A stretch of DNA of 64,000 bases, taken from the NCBI GenBank assembly GCA_021797735.1, contig JAJZZE010000011.1, positions 18,573-82,572 of the forward strand, in the 5' to 3' direction. The position numbers were made by a program, and so were the translations under genes. Each line of letters starts with the position of its first letter. The first letter of the stretch is position 1. Positions 1,168-19,561 of the stretch are shown piece after piece. The notes under the pieces are model-generated. The model searched no databases, was not told the DNA's origin, and saw only the letters and a program-made list of their open reading frames with translations. Origin of the DNA: Thermoplasmata archaeon (GTDB taxonomy: Archaea > Thermoplasmatota > Thermoplasmata > Thermoplasmatales > Thermoplasmataceae).

Positions 1168-1438
1168 TAAAAATTATTTTTTTGTAATATAAACTTTTAT
1201 TGAACTTTAATGTTAAAAATTATAATCTGTTATCATGGCAATATCATTAAAACCAGGGTCATTTTTATGGAATTGTAAATATTAAGATCTGAGTGTTCGA
1301 AACCAGTATAATATACCATATTATCAATAGTAGTCAATATTATTTTCAAATTTAGAAATATCTATAATTTTATATATAGTCTATATTGACTTAATGGATA
1401 TAAGTAAATATTAAATAATGCCATGTCTATATGTTTAT
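1168..1438. promoter_or_regulatory. Intergenic region with promoter of the first sugar-binding-protein operon
   Basis: This non-coding stretch opens with a T-rich tail that could terminate the glucoamylase gene. Near its right end is an A/T-rich TATA-like block (about 1408-1416) 25-30 bases before the ATG at 1439; the paralogous gene at 8331 has a similar block at the same distance. Two arms, AGTCAATAT (1332-1340) and ATATTGACT (1383-1391), form an inverted repeat 42 bases apart, which could be an operator. The motif AGTCTATAT (1378-1386) recurs in reverse complement upstream of the binding protein at 18134. No regulator gene lies nearby. Confidence 0.4.
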
Positions 1439-3091
1439 ATGGAAAAACCAGAAGCACCACCTACTAAAAGTGGTGGTTATAAAAAAATAATAGCCATTGT
1501 GGTTGTTATTATAGTTATAGCAGGCATTGGAATCGGGGTTTATGAGTTCACACACCCAGTAAAAAAGACCGTATACTTTTATACATGGTGGGCAACTGAA
1601 GGAAAGATTGCATTTAACAAGGAAGCAAAAGCCTTTGAAGCGGCACACCCAGGATATGTAGTTGAACCAACAATAAAAGCTGGGGCCGGTGGAACTGCGG
1701 CTAAAGGTGCAATATTGGCGTTGATAAAAGAGGGGCATCCCCCTGCTACATTCCAGACACATCTTGGTCCGGAGATATTAAGTTATATAAGTGCTGCACC
1801 GCACAAAGCAGGCTCATTTGTGAAACTGAATTCAGCGGCATCAAGTATAAATCTAACAACATCAACCGCATTTCCGCAGGTTTTATTAGCAGGTACATAT
1901 AATGGTTCGATGTATTCATTACCTGTTGATATGCATCAGGGAGCACAGTTATATTTAAATCCACAGGTACTGGCGGCCAATCATTTACCAATACCCCTGA
2001 ACTTCACCGCGTTAATGAACGATACAGCAGCATTAAAAGCGAAGGGAGTAACACCCTGGATAATACCGGGTAATGACGGTGGTTGGGATCAGATGCAGAA
2101 CTGGGAGGACACATTCCTTGCACTGGATAACGCGGCATATGGAAATGGCACCTTATACGATGAATTTATGTATGGAACCCTTAATTTAAGTAATCCTGCA
2201 GTCTCACATCTGGTAAGCAAAACTAACAGCAATTTCTTAACAATGCAAAACAACAGTTACAATGGAGAAGCTAGTATGACATGGACACAGGCTATACCCA
2301 AGGTTGTTGGTAAGAACGTTGCTTTTGAAGCGAATGGAAACTGGTATGTAAACTATGCATATGATTATCTAAACACAACAACATACCCAGCCAATTCAAC
2401 ATATGTATATATGAATAACGGCACATTAAAACCCGCTGCACATAATATAAAATTAATGTCGATGGATTTCCCGGGAACAAGCAAATATTTCGTTTTAGTG
2501 TCTGATTCGGCTGCGGTACCGTCAGGGTCAACATCAGCAAATGGTCTAACATTTGCAAAATTCTTCGCATCATACAGTGGCCAGAAAGCCTTTACAAAAT
2601 GGAAAGCAGCAACTTTCTATAACAATATAACAACGAATTATTATAACACACCATCACAATGGGCAAGTTATCAACAAGCAAAAGCTGATGCTAATACACC
2701 ATCTGACTGGTTATATCAGTTATCTGATGGAGGACTGTTTGATGGACCATTCTCAACAATGATAACTGATATGCTTTCGTTGGCTTCAACACCTACTTCT
2801 TCGGGTATACACTCATGGGATCATTCCCTGTCAGGTATACTATCAACCGAACAGGCAGAATGGAAAACCGCAAACACGCTTGGGTTAGGTTTTATGGGAA
2901 CATTATCACATCCATTTGGAGGCTATTTACCTCCATGGGCAGGCAGCAATACACCATCTACAGCTGCAGTAGATAATGCAACTCATAACAGTAATACACA
3001 GGCATTAAATAATTCATCATCCATATATTATATTGTGGCTCCTTTCATAGCACTGTTCTTAGGGTCCCTTATTATGGGTGATAAAAGGTGA
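1439..3091 (+). CDS. ABC sugar transporter, membrane-anchored solute-binding protein 1
   Basis: Extracellular sugar-binding protein of the maltose/oligosaccharide class (about 550 aa). A short N-terminal cytoplasmic stretch is followed by one hydrophobic segment (residues about 15-35), then the binding domain beginning VYFYTWWATEG. A second hydrophobic segment, YYIVAPFIALFLGSLI, lies just before the C-terminal GDKR, so it may be anchored at both ends. An in-frame ATG at 1418 would add seven residues. I prefer 1439 because the paralogue at 8331 begins with the same MEKPEAPPTKSGG and both have a TATA-like block about 25 bases upstream. The stop overlaps the GTG start of the permease, so it heads a four-gene operon. 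Substrate is unknown; maltodextrins are likely from the neighbours. Confidence 0.9.
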   Translation: MEKPEAPPTKSGGYKKIIAIVVVIIVIAGIGIGVYEFTHPVKKTVYFYTWWATEGKIAFNKEAKAFEAAHPGYVVEPTIKAGAGGTAAKGAILALIKEGHPPATFQTHLGPEILSYISAAPHKAGSFVKLNSAASSINLTTSTAFPQVLLAGTYNGSMYSLPVDMHQGAQLYLNPQVLAANHLPIPLNFTALMNDTAALKAKGVTPWIIPGNDGGWDQMQNWEDTFLALDNAAYGNGTLYDEFMYGTLNLSNPAVSHLVSKTNSNFLTMQNNSYNGEASMTWTQAIPKVVGKNVAFEANGNWYVNYAYDYLNTTTYPANSTYVYMNNGTLKPAAHNIKLMSMDFPGTSKYFVLVSDSAAVPSGSTSANGLTFAKFFASYSGQKAFTKWKAATFYNNITTNYYNTPSQWASYQQAKADANTPSDWLYQLSDGGLFDGPFSTMITDMLSLASTPTSSGIHSWDHSLSGILSTEQAEWKTANTLGLGFMGTLSHPFGGYLPPWAGSNTPSTAAVDNATHNSNTQALNNSSSIYYIVAPFIALFLGSLIMGDKR

Positions 3092-8330: not shown

Positions 8331-9971
8331 ATGGAAAAACCGGAAGCACCACCTACTAAAAGTGGTGGTTATAAAAAAATAATAGCCATTGTGGTTGTTA
8401 TCATAGTTATAGCAGGCATTGGAATCGGGGTTTATGAGTTCACACACCCGGCAAAAAAGACCGTATACTTTTATAGTTGGTGGGCTTCTACTGGGAAAGT
8501 AGCATTAGACCACGTAATATCATCATATGAAGCATCACATCCAGGCACAAAGGTGGAACAAACATTAAAACCTGGGGCAGCGGGGGTAAATGCGATAGGT
8601 GCAATATTAACATTGATGAAAACTGGTAAGTCCCCCGATACATTTCAATCACTTTATGGTCCTCAGATATTGAGCTATGTTGAAACAGCACCGGGAGGTT
8701 CAAATTCATTTGTAAAAATGAACTCAGTAGCGAATGATATAAATTTAACCACTTCCACTGTTTTCCCTCAAGATTTATATGCAGGTACATTTAATGGAAC
8801 CATGTTCTCGTTGCCTGTAGATTTGCACCAGGGTGGTGTTTTATATTTTAATCCGCAATTATTAGCTGCCAATCATTTACCAGCACCAATAAATTACACA
8901 TTACTTTTAAGTGATACAGCAGCATTAGAAGCAAAAGGTATAACACCGTGGATAATACCGGGTAATGACGGAGGATATGATCAGGGTGAATTATGGGAAT
9001 CGTTATTTTTAAGATTTGATAATTCAACGTGTGGAAACGCTACATTATACGATAAATTTATGTATGGTACCCTGAACTTATCTAATTCAACAGCATCTAA
9101 GATAATAAATGAAACCAACGATAAATTTATCTCATTCCAAAAGGAGAGTTATACAGGTGAATCAAGTATGACATGGACACAGGCTTTACCCAAGATCCTC
9201 GATAAGAAAGCGGGATTTGAGGTAGATGTCAATTCGTACACAAATTATGCATATGATTATCTAAAGACAACAACATACCCAGTCAATTCAACATATGTAT
9301 ATATGAATAACGGTACATTGAAACCCACTGCACATAATATGACATTAATGTCGATGGATTTCCCTGGAACAAGCAAATATTTTATGATAGTAAGTGATTC
9401 AATCGCGGTACCGTCAGGATCAACATCAGCAAATGGTTTAACATTTGCAAAGTTCTTTGCATCATACAGTGATCAGAAAATTTTTACAAAATGGAAAGCA
9501 TCAAGTTATTATAACAACATAACAACAGATTATTATAACACACCATCACAATGGGCAAGTTATCAACAGGCAAAAGCAGATGCCAATACACCATCTGACT
9601 GGGTAATAGATTTGGATGCCGGTGGTCTTTTTGCAGGGCCTACAACCTCCATAGAAAGTAAGTTACTTGGTCTTGTGGGAAATCCAACATCAAGTGGGGT
9701 AAATACGTTCAATAAGCAATTACCATCGATAATAAGCAATGAAAAATCGGATTGGTTAGCGGCTAATGCTTTAGGTTATGGTTTTATGGGAACATTATCA
9801 CATCCATTTGGAGGCTATTTACCTCCATGGATAAGTAATAATACAACAACTACGGTTACAGCAGATAATACAGCCCATGGCAATAATATATTAACATTAA
9901 ATACAATCTACATCACAGCACCTTTCATATCACTGTTCCTTGAGTCTATAATAATGATAGGCAGAAAATAA
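8331..9971 (+). CDS. Solitary sugar solute-binding protein 2 (paralogue of the 1439 gene)
   Basis: A membrane-anchored extracellular binding protein (546 aa) with the same layout as the first copy: identical MEKPEAPPTKSGG start, one transmembrane segment (residues about 14-35), a binding domain beginning VYFYSWWASTG, and a hydrophobic C-terminus. The first 140 bases differ from the first copy at only about four positions, while much of the rest is clearly diverged, with further near-identical patches (for example around 9245-9500 and 9780-9832). No permease or ATPase follows; it probably feeds the importer encoded at 3088-5958 with a different substrate preference. Confidence 0.9.
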   Translation: MEKPEAPPTKSGGYKKIIAIVVVIIVIAGIGIGVYEFTHPAKKTVYFYSWWASTGKVALDHVISSYEASHPGTKVEQTLKPGAAGVNAIGAILTLMKTGKSPDTFQSLYGPQILSYVETAPGGSNSFVKMNSVANDINLTTSTVFPQDLYAGTFNGTMFSLPVDLHQGGVLYFNPQLLAANHLPAPINYTLLLSDTAALEAKGITPWIIPGNDGGYDQGELWESLFLRFDNSTCGNATLYDKFMYGTLNLSNSTASKIINETNDKFISFQKESYTGESSMTWTQALPKILDKKAGFEVDVNSYTNYAYDYLKTTTYPVNSTYVYMNNGTLKPTAHNMTLMSMDFPGTSKYFMIVSDSIAVPSGSTSANGLTFAKFFASYSDQKIFTKWKASSYYNNITTDYYNTPSQWASYQQAKADANTPSDWVIDLDAGGLFAGPTTSIESKLLGLVGNPTSSGVNTFNKQLPSIISNEKSDWLAANALGYGFMGTLSHPFGGYLPPWISNNTTTTVTADNTAHGNNILTLNTIYITAPFISLFLESIIMIGRK

Positions 9972-12193: not shown

Positions 12194-14035
12194 ATGGTTG
12201 CCGTCAGTAACGTCATAAGATTTCCAGAAGTTGTAAAGGATAATTACATTAAGATAGAGAATCATGGAATAATTTTTAATAACAGGACATCTGCTCTAAT
12301 AGGGAGTGATGGCACTATTGACTGGGCATGTCTCCCGGACTTTAATTCAACCCCCCTGTTTGACTCCATCCTGGATTACAGGAAGGGTGGTTATTTTATT
12401 TTAAAGCCGGTCTGTGATACAGAAATCAATCAATATTATGAGGAGTTTACAAATATATTAATTACAGAATTTATAAAGGGCGGCAATATCATTTTAAGAT
12501 TAACGGATTTTCTTCCAACATCAAAGTTTAGCACAATAAATTTCCCGGAAATACATAGATTTGTCGAGGCAGTAGATGATGTAAAATTAAAACTGTACTT
12601 TAAACCATCATTCAACTATGGCAAAGAAACCCCGGAAATAGAAAAAAGCAAAAATGGATATTTATTCCATGGAACAGAAACAAGCATAGGAATATCAACG
12701 CATTTTAAATTATATAAAAATAAAGTCATGGTTTACAATAATGATATAGAATTAAAGAAGGGGTCATATCAGTGGGTGGTAATATCAACAGGTATAAATC
12801 ATCTAAACCGTGTTGATGAATACAAATCATATGAAAGATTGGAAGAGGCAAGGGATTACTGGAAAAACTGGTCAAATAGCATCGATTACCATGGATTATA
12901 CCACAAATATATACTCAGGTCTGCATTGACATTAAAAGGATTATTTTACGATCCAACCGGCATGATGGTTGCTGCACCCACATCCAGCCTGCCAGAGTCC
13001 ATAGGCGGTGAACGTAACTGGGATTACAGATTTACATGGGCAAGGGATACTGCATATGTAATAGAAGCATTATCATTAATCGGATTAGATGATGAGGCAA
13101 CAAAATTTTTATATGATTTAATGAACAAAATCAACAAGGATAAAAAATTAAAAACAATTTATTCCATCGACGATTCAGATACTATAGATGAAAAAATAAT
13201 TGATTATTCAGGATACATGGATTCAGGTCCTGTAAGAATGGGTAATAAGGCAGCCAATCAGTTACAGCTGGATCAGTACGGTTCAATAGTCAATGCCATT
13301 TACCGGTTCAGTTTGGGCGGTGGTATGGTAACAATACAGTTATGGGATTTTATTATAGATATTTTAAATTCATTGAAATTACTATGGAAATATCCAGATT
13401 CTTCAATATGGGAATTCCGTACAGAGCCAGAACAGTATGTTTATTCAAAACTTATATCATGGGAGGCTTTCCACCATGCAATAGCAATGGGCAGAAAACT
13501 GGGTTATTCAGCACCATATGCAGAATGGAAAAATATAGAAAATGAAATAAAAGATGATGTACTGAAAAATGGATATAACAGCGATATAAATTCATTTACC
13601 CAGTATTACGGTTCAACAACTATCGATGCATCACTGTTAAGATTGCCATTAATGGATTTCCTGCCCGTAAATGATTACCGGGTACAGGGCACTATAAATA
13701 AAATAGAAGAAGTTTTAATGCATGATAACTGTCTATTTAAAAGGTATAACGAGGATGATGGCATAAAGGGCAGTGACAATGCATTTTTATTATTATCATT
13801 CTGGTATGTAGAGGATTTAATAAAAATGAATAAAATAAAGGATGCAAAGAATACATTAGAATCAATTTTAGACCTATCAAACCATTTAATGCTATTCTCG
13901 GAAGAAATAGATTTAAATACACATGACCTGTTAGGCAATTTTCCACAGGCAATTACACATTTAGGGGTAATAAGGGCTATTGTAAAACTGAATGATAAAC
14001 TGAAAAAAATCGGGAAACCTGGTATTGTCAAATAA
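12194..14035 (+). CDS. Intracellular GH15 trehalase or glucoamylase
   Basis: GH15 family hydrolase (613 aa) without signal peptide. The N-terminal beta-sandwich (residues 1-240) starts IENHGIIFNNRTSALIGSDG, followed by an alpha/alpha barrel with GGERNWDYRFTWARDTAYV (271-289). Catalytic candidates are Glu407 in IWEFR and Glu570/571 in FSEEID. Close relatives from Thermoplasma have been shown to be acid-stable trehalases, so either alpha,alpha-trehalose or malto-oligosaccharides may be the substrate; sequence alone does not decide. It is followed after 44 bases by the debranching-type enzyme and together with malA forms an intracellular glucan/disaccharide degradation cluster. Confidence 0.9.
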   Translation: MVAVSNVIRFPEVVKDNYIKIENHGIIFNNRTSALIGSDGTIDWACLPDFNSTPLFDSILDYRKGGYFILKPVCDTEINQYYEEFTNILITEFIKGGNIILRLTDFLPTSKFSTINFPEIHRFVEAVDDVKLKLYFKPSFNYGKETPEIEKSKNGYLFHGTETSIGISTHFKLYKNKVMVYNNDIELKKGSYQWVVISTGINHLNRVDEYKSYERLEEARDYWKNWSNSIDYHGLYHKYILRSALTLKGLFYDPTGMMVAAPTSSLPESIGGERNWDYRFTWARDTAYVIEALSLIGLDDEATKFLYDLMNKINKDKKLKTIYSIDDSDTIDEKIIDYSGYMDSGPVRMGNKAANQLQLDQYGSIVNAIYRFSLGGGMVTIQLWDFIIDILNSLKLLWKYPDSSIWEFRTEPEQYVYSKLISWEAFHHAIAMGRKLGYSAPYAEWKNIENEIKDDVLKNGYNSDINSFTQYYGSTTIDASLLRLPLMDFLPVNDYRVQGTINKIEEVLMHDNCLFKRYNEDDGIKGSDNAFLLLSFWYVEDLIKMNKIKDAKNTLESILDLSNHLMLFSEEIDLNTHDLLGNFPQAITHLGVIRAIVKLNDKLKKIGKPGIVK

Positions 14036-14079: not shown

Positions 14080-15279
14080 GTGGAAAAAGAACTGGAGAAT
14101 GTAAGAATAAAATTATTAAGTGAACTGAAAAAACTCAGGTCAGATGATGGTTATATTTATGCCGGCTTCCCGAGATTTATGGAACTGTTTGGCAGGGACT
14201 CACTGATATCATCGTTGCAGCTGTTATACTTATACCCAGATTTTTTAATGAATTCTCTGGACATATTAAGCAGATATCAGGGCAATAAATATGATGCAGA
14301 AACGGGGGAAGAACCCGGCAAAATTCTCCATGAACTTTCTAATTCAAGGACGTATCTGGAGGATCCGCACAAGGAATCATGGGTTAGATTAAATGAACCA
14401 CTATTCTTATCTATTGATAGCACCCCACTTTTTATCATTTCTGCACTTATGTTTATAAGGGGAAATTATAAAACCAATATAGACTCCCTTAAAGAAACAG
14501 TTAAAAGGTCAGTAACATGGATCCTGAAAAAATTGGAGAATACAGGTTTTGTTACATATAATGCTATGGAAATAAATGGAAAACTGGCATCAATGGGATG
14601 GATGGACGGTTCATGGGATTTGTATGGTAAATTATCCGGGGATGTTGCACTCATTGAGGTTCAGGGATATGCCTATGAGGCTTTAAAACTGTTTAATGAA
14701 ACATTTCCTGATAATAATCTATACAGAAAGATAAATGATAAAATTATCTACCTGAAAAATAATATTGATAAATATTTCTGGGTTGATGATATTAAATATT
14801 ATTCTCCCGCCATTTCCATATTTAATGGTGAAATAAATATATTAAAGAATATAACATCTGCACCGGGACATCTATTAATAACGGATATTATTGATATGGA
14901 CAGAAAGAGGTTTATTGTTGATAAATTATTTGATAAAAATATGCTGACGCCCTACGGAATAAGGACGGTTTCAACAGGTGATGATATATTTAACCCAGTA
15001 AAATATCAATCCGGAAGCATATGGCCAAATGATAACTGGATAATCATGGAGGGGCTAAAAAAATCAGGCTTTATTACAGAAGCAGAAAAATTGAGATTAA
15101 GTTTATTAAAGGCAGCAACTTACCTGAAAGAACCATATGAATATTATTCTGTGGATAAAAATAATAATATGATAGGCTATAATGACCTTCTTATTAAACC
15201 ATGTGAGCTCCAGGCATGGACGGTTGGATTATTTTTAAGCATAATGGATAATAATTTTTATGGGACCTCTTTTTTGTAA
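14080..15279 (+). CDS. Amylo-alpha-1,6-glucosidase-like (debranching-type) enzyme
   Basis: A 399-residue alpha/alpha-barrel protein with the marks of the glycogen-debranching (GDE C-terminal) family: FGRDSLISSLQLL (about 45-57), EEPGKILHELS (86-96), the W-M-D-G-S-W block near residue 178, and GSIWPNDNWIIMEGL (309-323), which supplies the usual catalytic acid residues. Many family members debranch glycogen, but others act on sucrose or mannosylglycerate-like sugars, so the exact substrate is open. Start is GTG at 14080, with an A/T-rich TATA-like run just before it. Its last 22 bases overlap the convergent ABC ATPase gene. Confidence 0.82.
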   Translation: MEKELENVRIKLLSELKKLRSDDGYIYAGFPRFMELFGRDSLISSLQLLYLYPDFLMNSLDILSRYQGNKYDAETGEEPGKILHELSNSRTYLEDPHKESWVRLNEPLFLSIDSTPLFIISALMFIRGNYKTNIDSLKETVKRSVTWILKKLENTGFVTYNAMEINGKLASMGWMDGSWDLYGKLSGDVALIEVQGYAYEALKLFNETFPDNNLYRKINDKIIYLKNNIDKYFWVDDIKYYSPAISIFNGEINILKNITSAPGHLLITDIIDMDRKRFIVDKLFDKNMLTPYGIRTVSTGDDIFNPVKYQSGSIWPNDNWIIMEGLKKSGFITEAEKLRLSLLKAATYLKEPYEYYSVDKNNNMIGYNDLLIKPCELQAWTVGLFLSIMDNNFYGTSFL

Positions 15280-16268
15280 TCCTCGATTAATTTTACATCC
15301 TCAAGTATACCATCATTGTATATATTAAATCTTGTCAGGTCAAAGGATATATCATCACCAATAGAATACTGGTCTTTTGTTTTTATAACGATATTATCAT
15401 CGCCAGAAGTGCAGTGGACATAATAGTTTCCCTCTGAATTTTCAATAAGATTTATTTTAGCCTTTATAGCATCCCCATTTGCCGTCCATACTGATCTAAA
15501 GCCGATTATTTTACCGGGATAATCAAGAACATTGCCATCAATAAAATTCATAGGATACGCTCCAATGAAATCCCCAACCCATTTTGTAGCAGGTTTTTCA
15601 TACAGATCATTATATGTGCCTATCTGCTCAACGACACCATCATGCAGTACAGCAACCCTATCCGCAAGATTTGAGGCCTCAAGCTGATCGTGGGTTACAT
15701 AAATGAATGTATAATTTAATTCCCTCTGCAGTCTTTTCAATTCCTGCCTGGAGGTATATCTTACCCTGGCATCCAAATTACTTAAAGGCTCATCAAGAAG
15801 GAATAATGCCGGTTTCCTTACCAGTGCCCTTGCTATTGCAACCCTCTGCTTCTGTCCACCACTTAATCTTGTAGCATTTTTGTTCAGTACATCCTCAATT
15901 TTTAATAACTTTGCAACATCATCAACCTTAGTTTTTATTTCGGTTCTGTTCATTCCTGCCATTTTTAATGGAAAAGCAATGTTTTCATATACAGTCATGT
16001 TTGGATACAGTGCATAATTCTGGAATACCATTGCTATATTCTTTTTATTGGGTGGTTTGTTTGTTACATCCTTTCCATCAACCATGACCTTTCCTCCGTC
16101 CAGTGGCTCTATACCCACAATTGTACGCAAAAGTGTTGATTTCCCCTCTCCTGATGGACCCAGTATTACTAAAAACTCCCCCTCATTTACATTTAAATTA
16201 AGGTTTTTTAATACCTTTACACTGTTATATGATTTTTTTAAATTAATTAATTCCATTTTATGCGTCAT
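15258..16268 (-). CDS. ABC sugar transporter ATPase, second importer
   Basis: MalK/MsmX-type ATPase (336 aa). Walker A is GPSGEGKST, Q-loop VFQNYALYPNM, signature RLSGGQKQRVAIARAL, Walker B FLLLDEPLSNLD, H-loop VTHDQ; a C-terminal regulatory domain begins near residue 235. It is the last gene of a three-gene leftward operon, overlapping the upstream permease by four bases. The cognate binding protein is probably the divergent gene at 18134. Compared with the first importer's ATPase it is a separate, not recently duplicated, lineage. Confidence 0.93.
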   Translation of the reverse strand: MTHKMELINLKKSYNSVKVLKNLNLNVNEGEFLVILGPSGEGKSTLLRTIVGIEPLDGGKVMVDGKDVTNKPPNKKNIAMVFQNYALYPNMTVYENIAFPLKMAGMNRTEIKTKVDDVAKLLKIEDVLNKNATRLSGGQKQRVAIARALVRKPALFLLDEPLSNLDARVRYTSRQELKRLQRELNYTFIYVTHDQLEASNLADRVAVLHDGVVEQIGTYNDLYEKPATKWVGDFIGAYPMNFIDGNVLDYPGKIIGFRSVWTANGDAIKAKINLIENSEGNYYVHCTSGDDNIVIKTKDQYSIGDDISFDLTRFNIYNDGILEDVKLIEDYKKEVP

Positions 16269-17089
16269 GCTTTCATTCCTCCTGTTAAATATTCTCCTTT
16301 AAGGTATTTCTGTAAAAACACCACAATTACTATCACCGGTATTGTTACTAATAGTGCAAAACTTGATGAAATAAATGGGTCGCCCCTACTCACATAGTCA
16401 TAAAGGCTTACCGGAAATGTTGGGGCAAGTGGTGAAATTATTATAGCGTATGTAAATTCATCCCACGATGTCATCCACGCAAGCAAAAATGTTATGATTA
16501 ACGGTACCCGGATTAATGGTATGATAACATACCTGAATGACGATAATAGATTTGCTCCATCTATGTTTGTCTGATTTTCAAGGTCTACAGGCAGTGCCCT
16601 GAATCCTCCCAACATTATGAATGTAGATATTGGCAATACAACAAGTTCCTGGGCCAGTGCTATTCCAAAAACATTATCATACAATCCTAATTTTATAAAG
16701 TAAACAGATATTGGTATAGCAATAACTATGGCCGGAAGCATGTTTGCAAAGAACATCAATACAATAATTTTATTGGAAAATTTTGATGATATTTTATTTA
16801 ATCCATATCCTGCTGAAGTGGAAAGCACTATAGCCAGTATAGCAACTATAAATGCAACCACTACACTCCTTAATACAGGTGCAATCAATGACAGATCTTT
16901 TATTGACGCTTTAAAATTTGCAAGTGTAAAATCAAACGGCAGCTGATACGGGTATAATCTGTCAAATGTTAGACTTACAGGTTCAAATGCTATAAGGATT
17001 AAGATATATAGTGGATATATAAATATTATCGCTAAAATAATGGCGATGATATATGATGGGATATTACTGTTTTTCATAATTTGATGCAC
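16265..17089 (-). CDS. ABC sugar transporter permease, MalG-like, second importer
   Basis: Membrane permease (274 aa, six predicted helices) with the docking loop LENQTNIDGANLLSSFRYVI at about residues 177-196. The ATG at 17089 gives a 26-base overlap with the upstream permease; the second Met (17077) would shorten the overlap to 14 bases and is equally possible. It would pair with the product of 17064-17924. Confidence 0.9.
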   Translation of the reverse strand: MHQIMKNSNIPSYIIAIILAIIFIYPLYILILIAFEPVSLTFDRLYPYQLPFDFTLANFKASIKDLSLIAPVLRSVVVAFIVAILAIVLSTSAGYGLNKISSKFSNKIIVLMFFANMLPAIVIAIPISVYFIKLGLYDNVFGIALAQELVVLPISTFIMLGGFRALPVDLENQTNIDGANLLSSFRYVIIPLIRVPLIITFLLAWMTSWDEFTYAIIISPLAPTFPVSLYDYVSRGDPFISSSFALLVTIPVIVIVVFLQKYLKGEYLTGGMKA

Positions 17090-17924
17090 CTCCTAATTTT
17101 ATTACCAGAACAGCAAAGGCAACAATTATTAAAAGAAGTATAGTTGCAGCTGCATATGAATAATCCACAGAAGATATTGAGGTGAAGTATTCATAAACCA
17201 GTGTGTTTATTAATGAGGGATGATACCCTATTAACACCAGTGGCAATGCAAATATATTAAATTCACTGACACCTCTTATTAACAACGCTATTGCAATATA
17301 CGGTGCTAAATTTGGCAGTATTATATGTATAAACCTTCTGAATGAACCGGCTCCGTCAACGCTTGCTGCCTCCATAATTGCAGGGTCAATGCTTGACAGG
17401 CCTCCTAATAAAATTAAGGCAATTAATGGTGTATTTTTCCAGAAATCAGCAAACATTACAATCCCCATCGATGTGTACTGGGTTGCATACCAGTTCACGC
17501 TGGCTATTCCAAATAAATGCAGCAAACCAAGTGAATGCAGGGTAGAATTAGCAAAGCCACCAACAGCTGAGAATATCAATGAGAATATGAATGCAGACAC
17601 AACCGTTGAAATTCCATATGGGATTATAAATATAGTAGAAAATAATTTATTGCCCTTAAGTGATTTTATTAATATATTGGCTATCAAAATCGCAAAAAAA
17701 AGCTGTATCAACAGGGCACCAAAGCTTACTATAACAGTATCAAACGTTGACTTAAGCAGACCGCTTTCTATAGCGTAATAATTGCCTAAAGAGTATGCAC
17801 CTTTTGGTGTTTTAAAGCTAAGAAAAACTACAGATGCTGCAGGAAAAAATGATAAGGCAGCAACGTATACCAATGCAGGCAATACAAATAATATATATTT
17901 ATAGTTAGTATGGTTTTTAAACAT
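17064..17924 (-). CDS. ABC sugar transporter permease, MalF-like, second importer
   Basis: First gene of the leftward transport operon (286 aa, six predicted helices). The ATPase-docking loop is AIMEAASVDGAGSFRRFIHI at about residues 183-202, an excellent EAA motif. It is divergent from the binding-protein gene at 18134, with 209 bases between. Substrate unknown; glucose, trehalose or maltose would fit the neighbouring hydrolases. Confidence 0.9.
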   Translation of the reverse strand: MFKNHTNYKYILFVLPALVYVAALSFFPAASVVFLSFKTPKGAYSLGNYYAIESGLLKSTFDTVIVSFGALLIQLFFAILIANILIKSLKGNKLFSTIFIIPYGISTVVSAFIFSLIFSAVGGFANSTLHSLGLLHLFGIASVNWYATQYTSMGIVMFADFWKNTPLIALILLGGLSSIDPAIMEAASVDGAGSFRRFIHIILPNLAPYIAIALLIRGVSEFNIFALPLVLIGYHPSLINTLVYEYFTSISSVDYSYAAATILLLIIVAFAVLVIKLGGASNYEKQ

Positions 17925-18133: not shown

Positions 18134-19561
18134 ATGAAAAATACAGAGGAAGAAAAAAAACCAGGCAATGGCACTACAAAGAAAATTTTAGCCATAGTTG
18201 TTGCCGTGGTAATTGTAGGAGTTGTGATTGCAGTAGAATACCCTCATCTAGCACCCAAACCTGTAAAACAGCAGTCGCTGGCAGTTTATCCGGGACCAGC
18301 TGGACCAGCCAATTCTGAACATTTACTGGGTGGTTGTGTAATAGCTGAAGCAAATACCGCAGGTCTTACTTCAAGTCAGGTTAGTGCAGAGAATCAGTTT
18401 GTGGCGTATATGCTTTCACCAGAAGTGCAGTTTACATGTGAGCAGGCTACAGGTTTTATACCAATAAGTGCACATAATACAACGGGAAAGGATGTTCCAT
18501 CAATATACTCCAGCAGCAATACAACAGTCACTATAACATATTTCACAAGCATAGGATCAGCAGATTACAAAACCACAGAAAAGCTTATTTCAAATTTTGA
18601 AAATACATATCGTAATATAAAAATTAGCGCTACTGATGAACTTGCTACAAACATAGTGACCAATGTAGAAGCTAATATACATGCAGGTAAAACAGCACCA
18701 ATTGTAGTGAGTATAGATAACCTTGATGTTGGTATACTTGCCTATGGGACTTATCATGGGGCATCATATCTTGCGAATATGACAGACTACAAACAGGTAG
18801 TACCAGCACATGTGATCGGCTCGGTAACAAGCCTGACACATACTGAGCTATCTATATTTCATGCTATACCGTTTATAACACAGATAATAAACACGCCACT
18901 GGTATGGATAGATATGACAGCATTAAACTCCATAGGAGTAACACACGAACCACAAAATTACACAGCACTTTATAATGATGCAAAAGCATTAGATAAGAAG
19001 TATGGAAGGGGAATGATAAACTTCCAGGGACATGGCGGAGCAAGCACACCTACAGAACTATACCAGTGGTTTGTCCAGTACGGTGGCAATCCTGTTGTGT
19101 TTAATGATACACATGACATACAGGCAATGTATTATATATACAACCTAAGCAAATACTTTACACCTGAATACAAAACATCATATTGGGCAACATACAAAGG
19201 TCTGGCAGCTAACAAATACTCAATGATGGATTACCAGTGGCCAGGATCAGTTAATCTAAAAACAGTAGGAATGAATACATCTGCAGTATCTGGAAATAAC
19301 TCTGTGCTTAATGTATCAATAAAGGCTATGAGTGAAGGTGTCTTTATAAGGGACCCGGTACCATGGATTTCACAATGGCAGATATTCATGGATGATGCAT
19401 GGACATCATTAATAACGAGTGGGCATGCAGAAAACTATTCAACAATTGCACATGTGTTAAGCAAAGAAAATAGTGCTATGTTTCAATATATAGAATCTAA
19501 TGATAATTACACAGTAGCACATGACTATGAGACAGGCATGTATAAACCCATAACGGCGTAA
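18134..19561 (+). CDS. Sugar solute-binding protein with apparently permuted segment order
   Basis: Extracellular binding protein (475 aa), anchored by an N-terminal helix (residues 17-34). The odd point is the order of segments. Residues 51-113 (AVYPGPAGPANSEHLLGG, LSPEVQF, ATGFIPIS) resemble the block that in ordinary sugar-binding proteins lies late, after the 'N-G-K-x-A-M-M-x-x-G-P-W' segment. The usual mature N-terminus (TVTITYFTSIGSADY, residues 131-145) only comes afterwards. The late position itself (after YSMMDYQWPGS, residues 362-372) lacks this block and runs into the C-terminal helices (PWISQWQIFMDDAW, residues 410-423). It faces the second importer operon and is its likely receptor. 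Confidence 0.85.
   Translation: MKNTEEEKKPGNGTTKKILAIVVAVVIVGVVIAVEYPHLAPKPVKQQSLAVYPGPAGPANSEHLLGGCVIAEANTAGLTSSQVSAENQFVAYMLSPEVQFTCEQATGFIPISAHNTTGKDVPSIYSSSNTTVTITYFTSIGSADYKTTEKLISNFENTYRNIKISATDELATNIVTNVEANIHAGKTAPIVVSIDNLDVGILAYGTYHGASYLANMTDYKQVVPAHVIGSVTSLTHTELSIFHAIPFITQIINTPLVWIDMTALNSIGVTHEPQNYTALYNDAKALDKKYGRGMINFQGHGGASTPTELYQWFVQYGGNPVVFNDTHDIQAMYYIYNLSKYFTPEYKTSYWATYKGLAANKYSMMDYQWPGSVNLKTVGMNTSAVSGNNSVLNVSIKAMSEGVFIRDPVPWISQWQIFMDDAWTSLITSGHAENYSTIAHVLSKENSAMFQYIESNDNYTVAHDYETGMYKPITA

Follow-up and report, generated by a model that had tools for sequence, protein, structure and literature searches.

A predicted sugar-binding protein with a relocated late block in one family of Thermoplasmatales

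The locus and its genes

We analyzed a window of 64,000 nucleotides from a Thermoplasmata archaeon (contig JAJZZE010000011.1). The gene of interest is an open reading frame on the + strand (18134-19561) that starts with ATG and encodes 475 amino acids. The product is predicted to serve a CUT1-type ABC importer as its membrane-tethered substrate-binding protein. We refer to three blocks of the protein as A, B, and C, which is their order in normally ordered relatives; in the window protein, the order behind the N-terminal anchor is B-A-C (Table 1). Block B reads LAVYPGPAGP, then EHLLGGCVIAE, then two helices (residues 80-93 and 96-106 in the structural model), and then ATGFIPIS. Block A comprises the first part of the N-lobe, a crossing between the lobes near residues 256-264, and the part of the C-lobe that ends in DYQWPG. 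In the canonical relatives, the entire B block sits at the junction of A and C.

An earlier note on this sequence had placed a late-type block at the front of the protein (residues 51-113), the normal mature start VTITYFTS behind it at 131, and YSMMDYQWPGS at 362-372. These assignments hold, with motif positions that agree with ours within 1-5 residues: block B runs from about 48 to 118, VTITYFTS begins at 132, and YSMMDYQWPGS is at 362-372. The permuted protein does not reach any model in Pfam or NCBIfam, and the reordered chain may account for these models missing the permuted proteins. No RNA families were found at the locus.

Table 1. Features of the permuted gene and of its neighborhood (positions in the window)
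Feature	Position	Strand	Basis
GH15 enzyme with trehalase-like N-terminal domain	12194..14035	+	Pfam PF00723, PF19291; TreH1 model 399 bits, below cut-off
GDE_C/MGH1-like glycosidase	14080..15279	+	Pfam PF06202; synteny
Importer ATPase, UgpC/MalK-like	15258..16268	-	Pfam PF00005; best NCBIfam UgpC 355 bits, below cut-off
Permease 2 of importer	16265..17089	-	Pfam PF00528; synteny
Permease 1 of cognate ABC importer (BPD_transp_1), divergent from binding-protein gene	17064..17924	-	Pfam PF00528
Residues 1-47: short cytoplasmic tail, TM anchor (about 17-37), linker	18134..18274	+	Sequence; model helix 14-39
Residues 48-118: block B, relocated	18275..18487	+	Canonical-order profile ~301-364; GacH 276-333 (B profile); 9lff 319-386
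Residues 119-131: novel B-to-A linker, weakly conserved	18488..18526	+	25-91% identity among relatives
Residues 132-371: block A, from normal mature start VTITYFTS to DYQWPG	18527..19246	+	Canonical-order profile 39-311
Residues 372-389: A-C junction, canonical site of B	19247..19300	+	18 residues, no B remnant
Residues 390-475: block C, SVLNVSIKAMSEGVFIRDPVPW ... C-terminal helices	19301..19558	+	Canonical-order profile 378-463

The gene is linked to two BPD permeases and an ATPase in the window, and permuted genes adjoin the same set in most genomes whose contig extends far enough. Normally ordered relatives have the same partner genes. Their binding-protein gene, however, usually comes first in a permease operon of the same orientation; permuted genes either point away from permease 1 or adjoin the ATPase, in variable order (L031-L044, L046-L059). 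The rearrangement of the protein may have accompanied a rearrangement of the operon. The GDE_C/MGH1-like glycosidase is a recurrent neighbor of both permuted and canonical loci, the GH15 enzyme with the trehalase-like N-terminus is found near several permuted loci, and a GH31 alpha-glucosidase is also nearby in the window. Judging from the neighboring genes alone, the substrate is probably an alpha-glucoside, with trehalose and malto-oligosaccharides as candidates. A CUT1 ATPase from Cuniculiplasma divulgatum S5 (CSP5_0849) was reported to be expressed in culture (PMC7285479).

The window encodes two other binding proteins (1418-3091 and 8331-9971). Both are GlcS-type (NF040930, 571 and 546 bits) and align collinearly with the glucose-binding protein of Thermus (2b3b), in agreement with the normal order stated in the earlier note. 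The permuted protein does not match NF040930, so it is not GlcS-type by that model. The two GlcS-type proteins have near-identical N-terminal anchors and common internal stretches (YVYMNNGTLKP, MSMDFPGTSKYF, and YNTPSQWASYQQAKADANTPSDW), which might reflect a recent duplication or gene conversion. Both also terminate in a hydrophobic, anchor-like segment.

Sequence evidence for the block order

When the window protein was compared to the PDB with phmmer, UgpB (9lff) was matched twice and out of order: residues 133-273 align to 45-182 of UgpB, and residues 63-132 align to 319-386 (whole-sequence E = 8.7e-4). A profile of the permuted family, built from 15 homologues, again matched 9lff out of order, and 9xf5 as well. 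It also matched 7c14 and another structure of UgpB (4aq4), with the B part late in both chains. Overall, the hmmsearch matches include UgpB, GacH, MalE1, and TMBP, among others (E from 1.9e-9 to 0.01). A profile of block B by itself matched solved binding proteins solely in their C-terminal part: GacH at 276-333 (of 409), UgpB at 318-368, and others between about 226 and 368.

We also built a canonical-order profile from 30 normally ordered homologues, with no permuted proteins. On this profile, all 19 permuted proteins break into three pieces, which match at ~42-305 (A), ~378-463 (C), and ~301-379 (B), and in all 19, the B stretch is absent from its own slot. If B is returned to that slot in silico, then each of the 19 becomes a single continuous match, with a gain of about 27-46 bits. 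For the window protein, the score rises from 337.8 to 374.5 bits. The slot behind YSMMDYQWPGS is closed up and lacks B, as the earlier note had described. That note had asked if an independent canonical block lies between residues 372 and 405; since the canonical profile has no B match in this range, there is none, and this search did not find a second B elsewhere in the window gene either. Across 16 sampled sequences of both orders, B has seven identical positions (Y, G, G, H, G, G, V); in other words, YxGxxG, H, and GGxV are invariant regardless of the order.

Cluster D (type II) binding proteins normally begin with N-lobe part 1, followed by C-lobe part 1, the late N-lobe block, and finally the C-terminal helices. 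In the window protein, the late block stands before the first part instead. By these comparisons of sequences, the window protein is a permuted derivative of the cluster D / type II proteins rather than an ordinary member.

Distribution and origin of the reordered protein

The reordered protein occurs in one branch of acid-loving archaea. Across 117 genomes of the order, we found the permuted order in 32 genomes (26 full-length genes, 5 partial genes, and 1 broken gene), all of them from 12 genera of one Thermoplasmatales family. Unpermuted homologues exist in the same family and in other families of the class. In this family and in another family of the order, A-B-C homologues match 124-378, then 41-99 or 41-127, and then 373-473, within a single open reading frame; genome G078 contains one permuted and one normally ordered gene. 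In two further families of the class, as sampled, only the normal order was found, with up to 44% identity in A. Thus, normally ordered relatives are available for comparison at 30-44% identity. Among 84,980 species, with one genome per species, relatives were found only in Thermoplasmata (just close relatives are detectable in this way), and none were found in viral contigs.

Could the order be an artefact of assembly, frame, or annotation, or could the gene be decaying? In one genome (G096, L082 3838-4957), the permuted gene is split over several frames, which could indicate a pseudogene or sequencing errors. On the other hand, the 26 intact full-length genes from many assemblies all have the same order, and these include the closed single-contig genomes G068 and G048 (in the latter, locus L015, C1 815859-817247), which excludes an assembly error. 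For pairs that could be measured, dN/dS of block B is about 0.01-0.25, which is similar to A (saturation limits the other pairs), and these low ratios argue against a decaying gene. As judged by dN/dS, purifying selection on B matches that on A. We therefore consider an artefact or a decaying gene to be extremely improbable.

The permuted proteins form a single clade in separate trees of each block (support of 100/100 for A, 99/91 for B, and 92/85 for C) and in a tree of the rearranged whole protein (SH-aLRT of 100). Because the normal order is found class-wide and in the matched solved binding proteins, and the permuted proteins are a single clade, the trees indicate that the B-A-C order is derived and that it probably arose once. 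We considered the permuted order as the ancestral one, but this was ruled out, as the canonical order is class-wide and the permuted rows are one clade. A circular permutation was also rejected: C remains last, and B-A-C cannot be reached from A-B-C in that way. Within block C (window 19301-19558), identity to the relative at L031 is 80%, as compared to 93-96% in A and B, and dS to the relative at L033 is 0.48, as compared to about 1.0 elsewhere in the gene. This pattern suggests that the 3' end has recombined among close relatives.

The trees and dN/dS indicate a single change, from anchor-A-B-C to anchor-B-A-C, in the ancestor of a clade within this family, and that the new order has been maintained by purifying selection since. 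The likeliest route may be that A-B was duplicated in tandem and that the first A and the second B were then lost. This route stays an inference because there is no gene with two B blocks in the 117 genomes of the order and because traces of such a duplication at the two junctions were not significant (median shuffle p of 0.12 and 0.13, versus 0.002 and below for positive controls). The earlier note had proposed an intragenic permutation. The permutation itself stands, given homologues in both orders. A strictly intragenic move and passage via a tandem or paralogous copy are both conceivable.

The main rival is that B was acquired by recombination from another, related binding-protein gene and placed behind the anchor, and that the native B was lost later, which would give an end product that works in the same way. 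We view this as the main rival because one stretch of the permuted B differs from that of its canonical relatives: in all 19 permuted proteins it reads TGFIP or TGFLP, as opposed to LSWVAIN, LTWPVVN, or TGNPAVN in canonical relatives from the class. Also, the branch that leads to the permuted B is long (1.1), and the place and direction of the gene relative to the permeases are unlike those of canonical operons. However, the permuted B falls with its counterpart from the same canonical subfamily, apart from more distant paralogues (support of 100/100), the two share YPGPxGPxNxxHLLGGxV, and the trees of A, B, and C yield the same three groups. On this evidence, import of B from a second gene seems rather unlikely. 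It seems quite likely that the protein is a once-derived anchor-B-A-C binding protein of a CUT1-type importer, which arose from anchor-A-B-C and has been kept under purifying selection.

Predicted wiring of the lobes and comparison to known systems

We examined two AlphaFold models, one of the window protein and one of the ectodomain of the relative in L036, both of which were built from thin alignments (15 rows). The mean pLDDT was 50.7 and 54.3, respectively. In both models, the confident part (pLDDT mostly about 65-90) consists of B, with a strand and two helices, and the first part of A. The C-lobe has pLDDT mostly below 50, and the first 19 residues of B are not modelled confidently either. 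B and the first part of A align as one unit to the second lobes of type II proteins (VIA-align, 4h1x with Z = 9.4 and 9.8). The same unit aligns to OpuAC 95-251 (Z = 7.5) and to OppA-type proteins (Z of about 7); values below 8 can reflect chance arrangements, but the chain ranges are nevertheless consistent with what the sequences show. The first part of A alone aligns to the start of YcjN, GacH, MalE, and UgpB. Neither model had a Foldseek match in the PDB below E = 0.001, which is expected for reordered models that are half confident. Overall, there is support but no proof for the earlier note's suggestion of a retained fold: two models place B and the first part of A in one lobe, and the support does not extend to the second lobe.

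Alternatively, B might lie off its old site, as a membrane-proximal spacer or exchanged in a domain-swapped dimer, with A-C adapted to do without it. The linker from B to A has a length and variability that could allow packing in trans, and the poorly modelled C-lobe leaves room for this explanation. Against it, conservation at the core positions of B is like that in canonical relatives, selection on B equals selection on A, and both models show B and the first part of A packed into a single lobe. A displaced B would therefore be quite improbable.

If B occupies its old site, how would the chain be wired? The alignment suggests that both cuts are in loops, one immediately ahead of the last strand of the C-lobe (VYPGP) and the other immediately ahead of the third lobe crossing. 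With the cuts at these positions, the N-lobe would be built from one continuous stretch, namely B and the first half of A, and the models resemble the second lobe of type II proteins in this respect. In those second lobes, the strand after the crossing comes first, and the order of strands that the permutation would give the N-lobe is the same. In the C-lobe, the second half of A would be joined straight to C.

In a weak hhalign mapping to MBP (E = 0.36), B corresponds to about residues 243-311 of MBP. We take this range to start with the last strand of the C-lobe, to include the second crossing, and to stop just short of the third. If this mapping holds, then two of the three crossings would remain, the third would be lost, and the membrane tether would have shifted from the first strand of the N-lobe to the hinge side. 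The earlier note's view of the moved piece as a lobe segment fits, but by the alignment the piece would also carry a C-lobe strand and the C-to-N crossing. We had considered that a single crossing remains, and dropped this idea, because B would bring the C-to-N crossing along and two are more likely. Both lobes should still close on a sugar as a flytrap. On balance, we favor a single non-circular rearrangement in the ancestor that un-nested the lobes, so that the N-lobe is continuous and the C-lobe nearly so, with one hinge connection gone, the tether at the hinge, and function kept in 12 genera.

Our search of open-access papers turned up neither a permuted cluster D protein nor any permuted archaeal sugar receptor, in line with the earlier note, and no paper on the sugar-binding proteins of Ferroplasma. 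Duplication and the swapping of end segments are thought to have given binding proteins their interlaced lobes and hinge motion (Fukami-Kobayashi 1999, discussed in PMC9815098 and PMC10601554), and work on the ribose-binding protein considers such swapping between lobes to be central to how the fold originated (PMC9815098, PMC10601554). Here is an extant family in which the interlacing seems to be partly undone, with normally ordered relatives for comparison. It makes it testable whether the usual number of connections between the lobes is needed for closing. More broadly, relocation of a late piece of about 70 amino acids to the front of the protein is a natural experiment in how far the wiring of a very common fold can change.

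The homologous blocks are those of cluster D / type II binding proteins of CUT1 importers (MalE, GacH, UgpB, and TMBP of Thermococcus, 1eu8): the start of the N-lobe and the late block are recognizable by sequence, and the N-lobe is recognizable by the models as well. The window protein differs from them in having B-A-C instead of A-B-C and, by the MBP alignment, in the putative loss of the third crossing.

The nearest described natural case is TpMglB-2 (Tp0684) from Treponema pallidum, a permuted, tethered protein that binds glucose and was proposed as "Type Ic / Cluster Bc" (PMC4990184). It too is a natural membrane-tethered sugar-binding protein with a permuted order, although in our case the function is a prediction. 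TpMglB-2 is a bacterial protein with the type I fold. It arose by circular permutation, with the first three strands of the N-lobe at the C-terminus and a fourth crossing added, and its permuted part is only 13% identical to MglB (PMC4990184). In contrast, the window protein matches cluster D / type II proteins, its B-A-C order is not circular, and B has close homologues in the canonical order, so it does not belong to Type Ic / Cluster Bc.

Lobes with a continuous chain are also found in RBP-CPN and RBP-CPC, which are engineered, permuted lobes of the ribose-binding protein that were made to study the evolution of the fold (PMC9815098). Those are designed single lobes of a type I protein, while ours is a natural whole protein. 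Finally, glucokinase and 2-dehydro-3-deoxygluconokinase likewise differ by a non-circular exchange of two segments (PMC2213659, fig. 4). That exchange was described at the level of structure and between distant proteins (PMC2213659), whereas here it can be read in the sequences of near relatives. In other words, this is a natural non-circular permutation whose ancestral order, descendant order, and probable single origin are all readable from sequence.
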